Shown in pieces: positions 10,405 to 16,728 of a DNA stretch of 64,000 bases. Source of the stretch: Clostridia bacterium (GTDB lineage: Bacteria; Bacillota; DAOUPZ01); NCBI GenBank assembly GCA_030625885.1, contig DAOUPZ010000012.1, positions 1 to 64,000 on the forward strand. The letters are read 5' to 3'. The position numbers and the translations under genes are program-made. The stretch's first letter is position 1, and each line of letters starts with the position of its first letter. Under the pieces are notes generated by a model. It was not told where the DNA came from. It was given only the letters and a program-made list of their open reading frames with translations, and searched no databases.

Positions 10405-10668
10405 TTATAGCATATACTTTATATTTATCATGATAGCTATCGCAGATAATGGATATACTGTTACGATGATACTAGATGAAGTCCCTAATGGGGATCGGGC
10501 AGATACTAGAAAAGTACCTGGTGCTTCATAAGCATGGGTCACAATGGAACCAATCATTAGCGTCCCATCTCCAAAGTTCCATTTATATTGTATTGATAAA
10601 TCACGCGGATAAAAAGTAATCGTCTCTCCTGTTTTAGGTCTAAGCGGTGAATAGTAAAAATCAGCCAC
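10405..10668 (-). CDS. Single PKD-domain protein
   Basis: An 87-residue protein consisting almost wholly of one PKD (Ig-like) domain: WNFGDGT, then HAYEAPGTFLVSARS. PKD domains normally occur inside larger surface proteins. GTG at 10668 has TGGAGGGAG upstream and places the start right at the domain; a longer frame from 10716 lacks a ribosome site. There is no signal peptide, which is odd for a PKD protein, and the C-terminus is hydrophobic. Function unknown. Confidence 0.72.
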   Translation of the reverse strand: MADFYYSPLRPKTGETITFYPRDLSIQYKWNFGDGTLMIGSIVTHAYEAPGTFLVSARSPLGTSSSIIVTVYPLSAIAIMINIKYML

Positions 10669-10749
10669 TATGCTCCCTCCATTAAGGATTATTTTTTTGA
10701 ATATTCCTAATATCATTTTTAAATTATATTAACATGCCTCACCAAATAG

Positions 10750-10810: not shown

Positions 10811-11275
10811 CTACATTTTATCAAGAGCAATATTGATTTCAATCGGAATATTATCAACAAGAATACTAATACATAGAACTTTATCCACATTCGTTTTTAC
10901 TTCAAAATCCTCACCATACATTAATGTCGGGGGTGAGATATTCATATCTATTCCAATATTAGAGAAATTCATACTAGCATTTGCCGTCACCATATTTGTA
11001 AGTTCTGATAATGCACTTTGTGCCATATCATCCAACTCATTAACAGGTGCACCCATCATCATTTTAGAAGCAATTTTTTTTCCACTTTCAGTATCCATGC
11101 CATATATAACGTTACCTTTCATGGTTCCTACAATACCTAATATAATCATAACCCCATCACTTTTAAGATTCCGTTCTTTAACAGTAACTGATTGTTTTTT
11201 GATATCACTAAACCCAATTTGAGGCATAATCGTCAAAAATGAATTTATGAAAGGGTTTATGTATTTTACATCCAT
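10811..11275 (-). CDS. CheX-like chemotaxis phosphatase
   Basis: The 154-residue protein matches the CheX/CheC-FliY fold: SALSELTNMVTANASMNFS carries the Glu-x2-Asn pair used to dephosphorylate CheY-P, followed by DMNISPPTLMYGEDF. CheX turns off the CheY signal in chemotaxis or related phosphorelays. ATG at 11275 follows AAGGGGTG. No motility or chemotaxis genes are adjacent, so it could serve another response regulator. Confidence 0.87.
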   Translation of the reverse strand: MDVKYINPFINSFLTIMPQIGFSDIKKQSVTVKERNLKSDGVMIILGIVGTMKGNVIYGMDTESGKKIASKMMMGAPVNELDDMAQSALSELTNMVTANASMNFSNIGIDMNISPPTLMYGEDFEVKTNVDKVLCISILVDNIPIEINIALDKM

Positions 11276-13033: not shown

Positions 13034-13073
13034 CAAAAAATGAGACAATGTGACCTGTTCTCCCTATTGTCTC
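13034..13073 (-). terminator. Terminator of the corrinoid/GGDEF operon
   Basis: Stem GAGACAAT/ATTGTCTC (13042-13049 with 13066-13073) followed on the minus strand by ATTTTTTG, immediately after the last gene. Confidence 0.75.
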
Positions 13074-13077
13074 GATA

Positions 13078-15036
13078 TCATGATTTAATTTCTTCAAATA
13101 ATTGAAACCCACATTTACCGCTTTTCTTAACACAATACATAGCTATATCGGCTTTTTTAATCAATACATCAACATCTTTTCCGTCTTTTGGATAGAAAGA
13201 TACACCGATACTAGCTGAAATGTCAATAGCATTTCCCTCGATAATGCATCTTTCCCTTAAACTATTTAGTATCCTTTTAACAGTCTTTATTGCTGCCTCC
13301 GCTGAATCAATATCTGACAACAATAACGTGAATTCGTCCCCGCCCATTCGTGCTACCGTATCATTCTTACGAACATGTTTCTTTAACCTTTTGGCCGTTT
13401 CGATTAATAACTTATCTCCAACTTCATGTCCTAAATGATCATTAATTTGTTTAAATTTATTTAAATCGATAAATATGACTGCTAATTTGTTATTATTTTT
13501 ATCAGAAATCCGTATTTCTTCTTCCAATTTTTTTATAAATACTCTCCTGGTAGATAATCCGGTCAAACTATCGTTAAAAGCAAGTTTCTTTAGCTTTTCT
13601 TCTCTGCGTTTCTTTTCTGATATATCGGAATAAATAACATAAGTTCCAACTTTTTTACCTTCATTGATAATTGGATAGGCCAAGATTTTAACATCAAGCA
13701 TTTCCCCATCTTTACGTTTTCTTACTGTTTCTAATTTAACAAAATTCCCGGATAATATGTTATCTTTAACCCAAAATAGCTCTTCTATTTTATCATCCAA
13801 AACTAATATTTCAATATTTTTCCCCTGAATCTCTTCGAAAGAATATTGAAATAATTCTATAAACCCATTATTAATATTTGAAATTTTTCCATCATTATCT
13901 AAGATGATTATTGATTCTGGAGAATTCTTAAACAATTGTTGAAAATATGATTTTTGTAATTTTAGGTTTTGCTGTGTTAATATAAGTTCATGATATTTTC
14001 GAGCATTAAAAATAGCTAAACCACATATACTGCTCATGTTCAAAAATGTATTAAGAAAATATTTTTTGCGTTCATCATATAAAATATCATCAATGCAAAT
14101 AATACCTTGCTCTTCATTATTATATTGGATCCGCATGATAAATCCCTTATTTGATTTTGTCCACATATATCTTCCATTAAAACCAGTTTTTTGTGCTTCA
14201 ATCAACTCATTATAGTCGACTTGTACGGGATATGAGAAAATCTTATCAATTTCTCCATCAACTAATGAAAGATAGACAATTTTATCAGGTGTAATAATCA
14301 TTTTAATTAGATCAAAAATACTGTCTATTACTTTTTCTTCTTGACCAATGTTAGTAATTCTGCTAAACAAATCAAAAACCATTGAATATTCTGCCAGTTG
14401 CCTGTTTCTAACAGCTAAACCTTTTGATTTTTCTTCTTGACAAACCTTAAGCCTGAAGTTTAAAATTATTTTTTCAATCATATGCTTCATATAATCAAGA
14501 CTTACATTTACAACATCAAAGGGTCTACCTACAAATTCAGAAAGTGATTCCATTCTGTTAATACAGTCATCATAAACACCCGTATCTAATAAAAGAAGCT
14601 TAGAGGTAAATTCACCGAAAAATTCCTGAGCCATTCTTTTATCAAACTTCCATGTATCAATGAAATAAACCATCCATCTCATTAACCAGCCTGGTGTTAT
14701 GAGGTAATATCCATCATCTAAATATCGATTGATAACACTTTCATTAAGCAGTAAGTTAAAACATAACTTCGTTTTGGTAATACTACAATTTGGTATTTCT
14801 TCAAATGTATCATCTATAGCCGCACAACCTTCAGTACAAATCAGCTCCGTATGAGAACATTGTTCCTTATTTTTCTCAATAAACATTTTAATATCATCAC
14901 TATGAATTCTTTTGCATTCACCACAATTGGCAGGAAAGCTTTTCAATATTACATTTTCATACCCCTCTGATTCAATTATCGTTTTTAATTCGTGATAAAA
15001 ATTACTACATATCATTAAGCATAAACTATGATCCAT
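13078..15036 (-). CDS. DUF1638-like/GAF/PAS/GGDEF protein (diguanylate cyclase)
   Basis: This 652-residue protein has four parts. Residues 1-200 are cysteine-rich (NCGEC, CTEGC) and contain YYLITPGWLMRWM and LLDTGVYDD, resembling DUF1638 proteins that occur beside corrinoid methyltransferases. A GAF-like region (about 215-350) and a PAS domain (about 365-480) follow, then a complete GGDEF domain with MGGDEF. It should make c-di-GMP. There is no transmembrane segment, so the signal is intracellular. ATG at 15036 lies one base after the methyltransferase stop, with GGATTG upstream; a TTG at 15045 is the alternative. The coupling to a corrinoid methyltransferase pair is the notable point. The DUF1638 assignment is from pattern memory. 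Confidence 0.85.
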   Translation of the reverse strand: MDHSLCLMICSNFYHELKTIIESEGYENVILKSFPANCGECKRIHSDDIKMFIEKNKEQCSHTELICTEGCAAIDDTFEEIPNCSITKTKLCFNLLLNESVINRYLDDGYYLITPGWLMRWMVYFIDTWKFDKRMAQEFFGEFTSKLLLLDTGVYDDCINRMESLSEFVGRPFDVVNVSLDYMKHMIEKIILNFRLKVCQEEKSKGLAVRNRQLAEYSMVFDLFSRITNIGQEEKVIDSIFDLIKMIITPDKIVYLSLVDGEIDKIFSYPVQVDYNELIEAQKTGFNGRYMWTKSNKGFIMRIQYNNEEQGIICIDDILYDERKKYFLNTFLNMSSICGLAIFNARKYHELILTQQNLKLQKSYFQQLFKNSPESIIILDNDGKISNINNGFIELFQYSFEEIQGKNIEILVLDDKIEELFWVKDNILSGNFVKLETVRKRKDGEMLDVKILAYPIINEGKKVGTYVIYSDISEKKRREEKLKKLAFNDSLTGLSTRRVFIKKLEEEIRISDKNNNKLAVIFIDLNKFKQINDHLGHEVGDKLLIETAKRLKKHVRKNDTVARMGGDEFTLLLSDIDSAEAAIKTVKRILNSLRERCIIEGNAIDISASIGVSFYPKDGKDVDVLIKKADIAMYCVKKSGKCGFQLFEEIKS

Positions 15037-15037
15037 T

Positions 15038-16084
15038 TTAATCAATCCAATCCAAAGGATATTTCCCCCATTTTCGGACTACTTCCGAAATGTGCGACAG
15101 TATTTCTTCTGAAACTTGCCAGGGAATTTCAGCTTGACTATTTGTAATGATTAATCCACCCCCATGACCTGCTTTGGCAATAATCTCTTTTAAATTCTTT
15201 TCGGCAGCCGCCTTATCCCAGCGGCACATTTCAATTTCGTTTAAATTTCCTGTTATACAAATCTTCCCTTTACATTTCCTCTTTATACTACCAATATCTT
15301 CAAGTTCAGTCGTACCTATACCCACCGTTTTAGTTTTCATAACATCCTCTACAATGGACATACAACCGCTGGAACCAAAATGTGTAATAACAGGACCATT
15401 AATCTTAGCAATCGTCCTTTGGGCAATTTCAAATCCAGTTTCTTTATATAGTTGTTTTGGTATGATCATTGGTGAAGAAACGGGATCAATATAAATAATT
15501 GCAGTTGCCCCGGCCTCAATCTGTGCATTAGCCCATTTGATACAATGCGCTTCATTTTTTTTCATTAATATTTTAAATAAGTTGTCCTCTTCATACAGTA
15601 ATTGTATATATTTATCAAATCCCATTTGCATGATAGGAAGAGAAAAGGGGGATATAACCACCCCAATAACTGGGACTTCATGTCCAACTTTCTCTTTTAA
15701 TATTTCTGTGGTTTTTAAAACCTTAACAAGACATGGCGTGTCCTTTATTTCAGGAACCGTTAGAGTCTCAATTTGTTGACAACGTTTAATAATAGGTTCT
15801 CCTGCGTTTGGCGCTTCTTTATCCCTAAATACGACTTTACCACCCCATGCTTCAAATTCAATTGCAATATAATACAAAGTATAGACACAATCATTATGAT
15901 ATTTTTCTCTAATGTTTAATTGACCTTTGGCGACATACTCGGGTTTAGAATAGTATTCTTTAATAGACATCCCCAATTCCTTCGCACCATACATAGAAAG
16001 AAATAAAAATAATGGGATTTTATCTGGTTCTTTATGCTGCAATGTTGTTAATACACGCGTCAAAGAGGTCATCATTTTAGTCAT
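15038..16084 (-). CDS. MtaA/CmuA-like corrinoid methyltransferase (UroD family)
   Basis: The 348-residue protein has the uroporphyrinogen-decarboxylase barrel used by MtaA, MtbA and CmuA-type methyltransferases, with YIDPVSSPMI, THFGSSGC (zinc-ligand His and Cys region), TGNLNE and a glycine-rich GHGGGLIITNS end. Such enzymes move methyl groups between a corrinoid protein and a thiol or pterin. ATG at 16084 overlaps the TGA of the corrinoid gene (ATGA), with GGGAGAG upstream; longer forms up to 16168 would overlap it by 88 bases and are unlikely. The partner is the gene directly upstream. The methyl donor and acceptor are not identifiable. Confidence 0.88.
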   Translation of the reverse strand: MTKMMTSLTRVLTTLQHKEPDKIPLFLFLSMYGAKELGMSIKEYYSKPEYVAKGQLNIREKYHNDCVYTLYYIAIEFEAWGGKVVFRDKEAPNAGEPIIKRCQQIETLTVPEIKDTPCLVKVLKTTEILKEKVGHEVPVIGVVISPFSLPIMQMGFDKYIQLLYEEDNLFKILMKKNEAHCIKWANAQIEAGATAIIYIDPVSSPMIIPKQLYKETGFEIAQRTIAKINGPVITHFGSSGCMSIVEDVMKTKTVGIGTTELEDIGSIKRKCKGKICITGNLNEIEMCRWDKAAAEKNLKEIIAKAGHGGGLIITNSQAEIPWQVSEEILSHISEVVRKWGKYPLDWID

Positions 16085-16728
16085 GCTAGCTCTCCCATCC
16101 ACTTCAAAATAATATCCGCCGCTTCTTTGGCACTTGTCGCCATCGCATCTGCACCAACATTTTTCCATAAATTATCATCAAAACGAAATGGTGCGCCCCC
16201 AACTAATAATTTTACATCTAACCCTTTCATTTTTAGCCTTTCTCTTACATTTTTAACCTTTAAAGCTGATGGTAACATCAATACTGAAATCAGAATAATC
16301 CTTATTTTATCTTTTTCAGCCTTGTTAACCAAAGTATCTTCATCAATTCCACTTCCGTAATCTAATAAATCAAATCCATAAGTTCTTAAAGCAGAATAAA
16401 TAATTGTTTTCCCTAACGTGTGAAAATCATTTAAAGTTACTATCGCAATAGGTATCGTATCTTTAGTATGACTTGTTGATAATTTTTTTAGGATATGCTC
16501 TATTAATTCTTCACAGATTCGCCCACTCATATAAACTTGTGATAAAGCGACATCTCCCTTTTCCCAATCTTGCCCTATTTTTTCTAATACAGGAACGATT
16601 ACATCATTAACAAAATTAATTTCTTCTTTGCTTTCTTGTACTTGCTCAAATATTCTCATCACATTCAAGCGATTTAATTCTAATATTGACGTTTCAAATT
16701 CGTCTCTTAAACTTCCCAAACGCTTCAT
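16081..16728 (-). CDS. Methyltransferase corrinoid protein (MtaC/MtbC-like)
   Basis: A 215-residue protein: N-terminal helical cap (about 1-85) and a cobalamin-binding Rossmann domain with DFHTLG, the DxHxxG motif whose His is the lower ligand to cobalt, then LLDYGSG and LLVGGAPF. It carries the methyl group for the overlapping UroD-type methyltransferase. ATG at 16728 has GGAGG five bases upstream; an upstream TTG at 16755 is less likely. It is the first gene of the three-gene operon. No substrate-specific methyltransferase of the MtaB, MtgB or MttB type is adjacent, so the first half-reaction must be supplied elsewhere or by the UroD protein itself. Confidence 0.91.
   Translation of the reverse strand: MKRLGSLRDEFETSILELNRLNVMRIFEQVQESKEEINFVNDVIVPVLEKIGQDWEKGDVALSQVYMSGRICEELIEHILKKLSTSHTKDTIPIAIVTLNDFHTLGKTIIYSALRTYGFDLLDYGSGIDEDTLVNKAEKDKIRIILISVLMLPSALKVKNVRERLKMKGLDVKLLVGGAPFRFDDNLWKNVGADAMATSAKEAADIILKWMGELA

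Follow-up and report, generated by a model that had tools for sequence, protein, structure and literature searches.

A corrinoid protein, a UroD-type methyltransferase and a DUF1638-GAF sensor form a widespread three-gene unit with exchangeable signaling outputs

Three adjacent genes on the reverse strand of a Clostridia bacterium contig (DAOUPZ010000012.1) encode a corrinoid protein, a UroD-type methyltransferase and a sensor protein that ends in a diguanylate cyclase. We analyzed them in the window, a stretch of 64,000 nucleotides, and among their relatives in other genomes. The three-gene unit is a widespread family, not a one-off fusion. Throughout the family the input module stays constant and the output is exchanged, GGDEF being one of at least three outputs. 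An earlier note, made from the sequence of the window alone, had described a corrinoid methyltransferase operon ending in a diguanylate cyclase; what we find instead is a widespread module whose output is swapped. Judging from sequence, we think it probable that the unit is a dedicated sensory module rather than a catabolic operon and that the state of the corrinoid is read through the DUF1638 and GAF domains before it reaches the swapped output. The parts are known; as a kind of signaling system the unit appears to be new, a judgment that depends in part on function that we infer. The three genes are as follows.

16081..16728, reverse strand: corrinoid protein (B12-binding_2 and B12-binding; Pfam PF02607 and PF02310), first gene
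15038..16084, reverse strand: UroD-type methyltransferase (PF01208, E 1e-55), second gene
13078..15036, reverse strand: sensor protein DUF1638-helix-GAF-PAS-GGDEF, 652 residues (Pfam and AlphaFold2), third gene

A ribosome-binding site (GGAGGT) precedes the corrinoid gene, the UroD gene overlaps the latter by ATGA, and the sensor ATG falls one base past the UroD stop. The genes are thus as tightly coupled as the earlier note had stated.

With the UroD protein as sole query, which is blind to the third gene, we searched 84,980 species genomes; the locus counts given here are for the best 80 of 200 UroD relatives. The corrinoid gene lies upstream of the UroD gene in 79 of the 80 loci. A sensor gene lies directly downstream in 78, and the remaining two contigs end there. 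Chance adjacency of sensor and UroD can be rejected, as the two are linked in all 78 loci able to show it. Searches from the sensor side give the same neighborhood. Among 399 genomes of the window's phylum, the DUF1638-GAF part has five strong relatives, all of them preceded by a corrinoid gene and a UroD gene arranged as in the window, and in a second phylum (297 genomes) the top matches of a sensor-first search again have the corrinoid-UroD-sensor arrangement. A search with the whole sensor was swamped by GGDEF and PAS matches, and a contig scan with the sensor N-terminus alone gave no match, the sequence being too divergent.

Grouped by record titles, the carriers, bacterial as well as archaeal, span about 14 phylum-level groups, including Thermodesulfobacteriota, Nitrospirota, Chloroflexota, Bacteroidota, Pseudomonadota, Bacillota, Spirochaetota, Verrucomicrobiota, Nitrospinota, Riflebacteria, SAR324, Neomarinimicrobiota and methanogenic archaea. 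Many records are metagenome-assembled genomes (MAGs), in which truncated genes occur. Contamination can be rejected, because the three-gene unit is also found in named isolates, among them Thiocapsa roseopersicina DSM 217 and Desulfocicer vacuolatum DSM 3385. Distances among the UroD, corrinoid and sensor proteins correlate (Mantel r 0.62-0.70, a level that 0 of 2000 permutations reached), with shared species history contributing to this value. As a separate observation, many of the carriers are MAGs from lineages that include magnetotactic bacteria (Magnetobacterium, Magnetominusculus, Desulfamplus, SAR324 and Magnetococcales), a pattern in which sampling and biology are not separated.

The make-up of the sensor varies across the family. 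DUF1638 and GAF are fused in 53 of the 80 loci, and in three more DUF1638 is a separate gene ahead of a GAF kinase; four loci have DUF1638 only, some of them cut by contig ends, and two end before the sensor. In the 46 full-length fused sensors, the window's included, we find HATPase_c (28), GGDEF (14), receiver (8) and Hpt (2) domains, with DUF1638 matched at E <= 0.01 in 43. The five relatives in the window's phylum divide into two with GGDEF output and three hybrid histidine kinases, one of these in two frames. On the UroD tree, GGDEF output needs seven changes, at least two of which are forced by well-supported branches. A second, more divergent class consists of a corrinoid-UroD-DUF1638-PAS kinase unit in D. 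vacuolatum and of locus L263, where the order is corrinoid-UroD-[DUF1638-GAF-PAS-PAS-HD-GYP]. Judged from their domains, the outputs include synthesis of cyclic di-GMP (c-di-GMP), phosphotransfer and, probably, degradation of c-di-GMP.

Several loci have further features of their own. In the divergent class (L261 4938-9793 and L263 3705-7983), DUF1638 is either separate or fused to GAF-PAS-PAS-HD-GYP, and the UroDs also are without HxC. Two tandem corrinoid-UroD pairs precede one DUF1638-GAF-kinase at L214 (5346-8825), perhaps two substrates served by one sensor. At L185 (11439-12497) another GAF-GGDEF protein, from the same GAF clade, is encoded about 3.6 kb downstream of the module, and at L079 (7110-9485) the corrinoid gene directly follows a GAF-PAS-GGDEF-HD-GYP gene of its own strand.

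The window's sensor protein has five parts.

14497..15036, reverse strand: DUF1638 domain, residues 1-180, with C10, C38, C71 and C92 (PF07796, 32 bits; profile match)
14353..14496, reverse strand: long helix, likely a coiled-coil signaling helix, residues 181-228 (AlphaFold2; predicted local distance difference test, pLDDT, 82-97 by block)
13984..14340, reverse strand: GAF-fold domain, residues 233-351 (AlphaFold2 and Foldseek)
13606..13944, reverse strand: PAS domain, residues 365-477 (PF13426, E 2.4e-13)
13114..13578, reverse strand: GGDEF diguanylate cyclase domain, residues 487-641 (PF00990, E 8.7e-48)

The Pfam model of DUF1638 scores 32 bits (E 1.4e-7), above its gathering cut-off of 27, and the match covers only model positions 51-160. 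Profile-profile comparison of the sensor N-terminus with 30 standalone DUF1638 proteins extends the match to 182 columns (probability 98.4, E 9.4e-15). The GAF domain has no Pfam match in the window sensor and is seen by AlphaFold2 (pLDDT 92.9) and Foldseek, whose top matches for this part are GAF structures such as the KdpD GAF domain (TM-score 0.70 by target); PF01590 (GAF) is matched directly in the divergent protein of L263. In the cyclase domain both the GGDEF motif and the RxxD I-site (RKND) are intact. GG[DE]EF is present in 10 of the 14 GGDEF relatives checked, the pattern leaving four Thiocapsa proteins unmatched. Overall the window sensor deviates at 5 of 23 near-invariant positions, which is not extreme. 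The domain calls of the earlier note, including the GAF, PAS and GGDEF domains, therefore stand, the GAF domain by structure and not by Pfam. That note had named the lack of a significant DUF1638 or related match, together with separation of the GGDEF gene from the methyltransferase pair in relatives, as evidence against it; we looked for both, and found a significant domain match and a neighborhood that ties the sensor to the pair.

Four cysteines of the DUF1638 domain are conserved among 51 sensors: C10 (100%), C38 (94%), C71 (94%) and C92 (88%). The motifs NCGEC and CTEGC, to which the earlier note had drawn attention, hold two of these, C38 and C71; C41 and C67, also in the motifs, are not conserved, and C10 and C92 lie outside them. 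In the standalone DUF1638 family, the cysteine motifs iAC, GxCGN and DDCIS align with C10, C71 and C92, and C38 adjoins the His of the motif lHn.P. Because standalone members share three of the cysteines and have a His beside the place of C38, the whole family likely has a metal or Fe-S site. A PDB sequence search with the input module found no significant match. Foldseek with DUF1638 alone returned nothing below E 1e-3 and no convincing TM-score, so the fold offers no functional lead.

The corrinoid protein of the window deviates at 1 of 26 near-invariant positions. Its motifs D101-x-H103-x-x-G106, S148-x-L150 and G177-G178 are intact, the first as the earlier note had read it, and D101, H103, G106, S148, L150 and the GG pair are invariant in all 80 loci. 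Since it scores 92 bits against TIGR02370 (methyltransferase cognate corrinoid protein), whose curated cut-off is 215, and yet keeps these motifs, we assign it by sequence to another subfamily.

The best solved relative of the UroD protein is MtaA (4ay7, E 4e-14), and the protein scores 103 bits against TIGR01463 (MtaA/CmuA methyltransferase), where the curated cut-off is 235. The window protein is 49-58% identical to the operon clade, which lacks the HxC...C zinc ligands of the MtaA/CmuA type: the window has H235-F-G, and 98% of the clade has H-x-A. Paralogues that keep HxC occur in the window genome and in another genome (G049); they are 19-25% identical and have no adjacent sensor. About 90 positions are at least 95% invariant across the 80 UroDs, including H235, H317, E319 and E76. 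A near-invariant motif of the clade's own, DNHGEIP, argues that most members probably retain an active site.

Clustering of the neighboring genes to find a hint of the substrate turned up only signaling proteins as widely recurrent. The family in question, of kinases and response regulators, occurs in 38 of the 80 loci within 6 kb, whereas transporters, acceptor methyltransferases, activators and other metabolic families do not recur there. The operon lacks the combination of MT II (PF00809) and RACo, inside it or nearby, by which a catabolic O-demethylase system is recognized. Among six carrier genomes of the window's phylum, RACo is absent from G103, G303 and G393 (the last 72% complete), that is, from two of the five that are more than 90% complete (G103 and G303); the window genome has RACo elsewhere, away from the operon. 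No separate PF00809 acceptor was found in the window genome or in G103, which have only an apparent dihydropteroate synthase and MetH, although the ACS and MttB families were not searched. PF00809 in G393 is MetH only, and further members occur in G303 and G370. Elsewhere in the window genome, a cluster at L125 (5182-9864, G000:C6) contains a corrinoid protein, a UroD with HICG, RACo and a second UroD-like protein, with no sensor-type DUF1638.

Taking the operon structure, linkage, co-divergence, exchange of outputs, conserved corrinoid ligands and cysteines, and folds as observed, we propose how such a sensory module might work. Upon meeting a compound or condition, the UroD-like enzyme would move a methyl group on the corrinoid protein or otherwise alter its cobalt state. 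The corrinoid protein would then dock on the DUF1638 domain, in which the four conserved cysteines probably bind a metal or an Fe-S center. The long helix and the GAF domain would relay the corrinoid state to the output of the lineage: here PAS-GGDEF, making c-di-GMP; in relatives mostly a histidine kinase with or without a receiver; and in the divergent class HD-GYP. We infer the docking, the metal, the ligand and the direction of the response, as well as the recognition of corrinoid proteins by DUF1638. In a narrower version, the corrinoid methyltransferase pair would serve as a dedicated detector, and DUF1638-GAF would read whether the corrinoid is methylated and so set c-di-GMP or phosphotransfer directly, across many bacterial and archaeal phyla; this we can put forward only tentatively. 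The earlier suggestion that corrinoid or methyl-transfer state drives the output survives in this form, with a mechanism that is still conjectural and with c-di-GMP as only one of the signals. If true, B12 methyl-transfer chemistry would be used as an information input and not only in metabolism, DUF1638, so far without an assigned function, would gain a role as a reader of corrinoid proteins, and c-di-GMP and two-component networks would have an unrecognized input. The question can be tested in the three-gene unit from the named isolates.

Several results weigh against this proposal. The window UroD is the outlier of its clade, with changes at 14 of the 90 near-invariant positions where the next worst member has 4; DNHGEIP here reads NSQAEIP. 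Given this number of changes, which include H317Q, catalysis by the window UroD seems doubtful. Either it has acquired a new substrate or it has lost catalysis, and a loss would fit a redox-type explanation. The corrinoid protein and the sensor of the window have been altered less. DUF1638 is not always in cis, as 18 of the 80 loci have GAF without DUF1638, neither fused nor in the flanks. These loci suggest that the GAF domain takes part in reading the corrinoid state: the earlier note had centered on DUF1638, and the domain is indeed present, but the GAF-like domain is the minimal partner no less than DUF1638. In addition, MetH could be the methyl acceptor, and the counts come from the best 80 of 200 relatives in a clade first defined from sensor-linked members.

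The redox explanation would have UroD only hold or load the corrinoid, without transferring methyl groups any longer, and the module report either how cob(II) and cob(I) are balanced or whether the four-cysteine center is oxidized. It draws on the conserved cysteines, the loss of the HxC zinc motif and a window UroD that is degenerate beside intact corrinoid and cysteine ligands, and MsmS and RdmS, which control methyl sulfide genes in Methanosarcina, are sensors of redox state (PMC6944256). The invariant positions of the UroD clade resemble a kept active site, however, and we regard a redox or oxygen sensor as unlikely. That UroD-corrinoid pairs are normally metabolic, that the corrinoid ligands are intact and that a further corrinoid cluster, this one with RACo, exists in the window genome would all suit an ordinary catabolic methyltransferase pair, co-transcribed with a regulator that senses something else. 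Such a pair would not be expected to stay linked to its regulator across about 14 groups despite output swaps; given also the lack of a recurrent transporter, acceptor methyltransferase or activator, and the carriers with neither RACo nor a separate PF00809 acceptor, we find this account improbable.

The fused DUF1638 might instead be a mere corrinoid reactivation factor, its output signaling a need for reactivation or being incidental. DUF1638 is found together with a RamA-like protein in alpha-proteobacteria, and B12-dependent methionine synthesis requires it (PMC5764234). Several carriers are without RACo, though, the GAF-only loci dispense with a fused DUF1638, and repeated replacement by kinase, cyclase or HD-GYP is not what an incidental output would undergo, which makes this explanation very improbable. 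Least credible of all is B12-based light sensing, in which photolysis of an alkyl-cobalamin on the corrinoid protein would be signaled. CarH-type B12 photoreceptors exist and Thiocapsa and Chloroflexaceae are among the carriers; most carriers, however, are apparently sediment anaerobes, and a UroD enzyme would be superfluous.

One precedent is a DUF1638 gene of Phaeobacter inhibens, PGA1_c13340, which is required for methionine synthesis together with a split MetH and a RamA-like activator and for whose role the authors made no specific proposal (PMC5764234). It belongs to the same domain family, lies beside the gene of a B12-binding protein, and B12-dependent methyl transfer depends on it (PMC5764234); an action of DUF1638 on corrinoid proteins is therefore plausible. 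Unlike the sensor described here, it is standalone, has no signaling output fused and is partnered by the RamA-like activator. The closest known systems are MsmS and RdmS of Methanosarcina acetivorans, sensor kinases with GAF/PAS domains. They regulate methyl sulfide metabolism genes and are linked to redox or dimethyl sulfide, but they sense through their own heme (MsmS) or thiols (RdmS) (PMC6944256). They have been described from one archaeon, the present module from many phyla. To our knowledge, they have neither DUF1638 nor an obligatory corrinoid-UroD pair.

MtaA, CmuA, MtbA and O-demethylase MT I share the fold and the corrinoid partner of the module's UroD, which nonetheless forms a separate clade without HxC and whose operon includes neither RACo nor an acceptor gene. 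The output domains of the module are those of GAF/PAS diguanylate cyclases and hybrid histidine kinases, whereas its input is a separate, enzyme-like unit of two proteins plus DUF1638. In CarH and AerR a cobalamin-binding domain serves signaling inside the regulator itself. The B12 protein of the module is methyltransferase-cognate and would act in trans. Neither cobalamin nor any corrinoid appears in a census of c-di-GMP stimuli (PMC8846402). The open-access papers on DUF1638/PF07796 that we read deal with B12 reactivation rather than signaling, and the open-access titles and abstracts returned by combined searches describe no such module, although subscription papers could hold a description.

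A possible terminator follows the sensor gene.

13035..13073, reverse strand: probable intrinsic terminator, 8-bp inverted repeat then U6 (by fold; plausible at most)

The single terminator of the earlier note is plausible in its 8-bp perfect inverted repeat, 16-nt loop region and U6, although it folds no better than shuffles (z -0.86). A promoter scan gave no more sites than shuffles, and an Rfam search of window positions 10-20 kb found no match, hence no hint of a riboswitch. The flanking genes are unrelated, with a nitroreductase downstream and a divergent M15 peptidase upstream. Nearby on the same strand lies a gene for a CheX-like phosphatase (window 10811-11275), and window positions 10405-10716 encode a short protein of 103 residues, most of whose length is one PKD domain.

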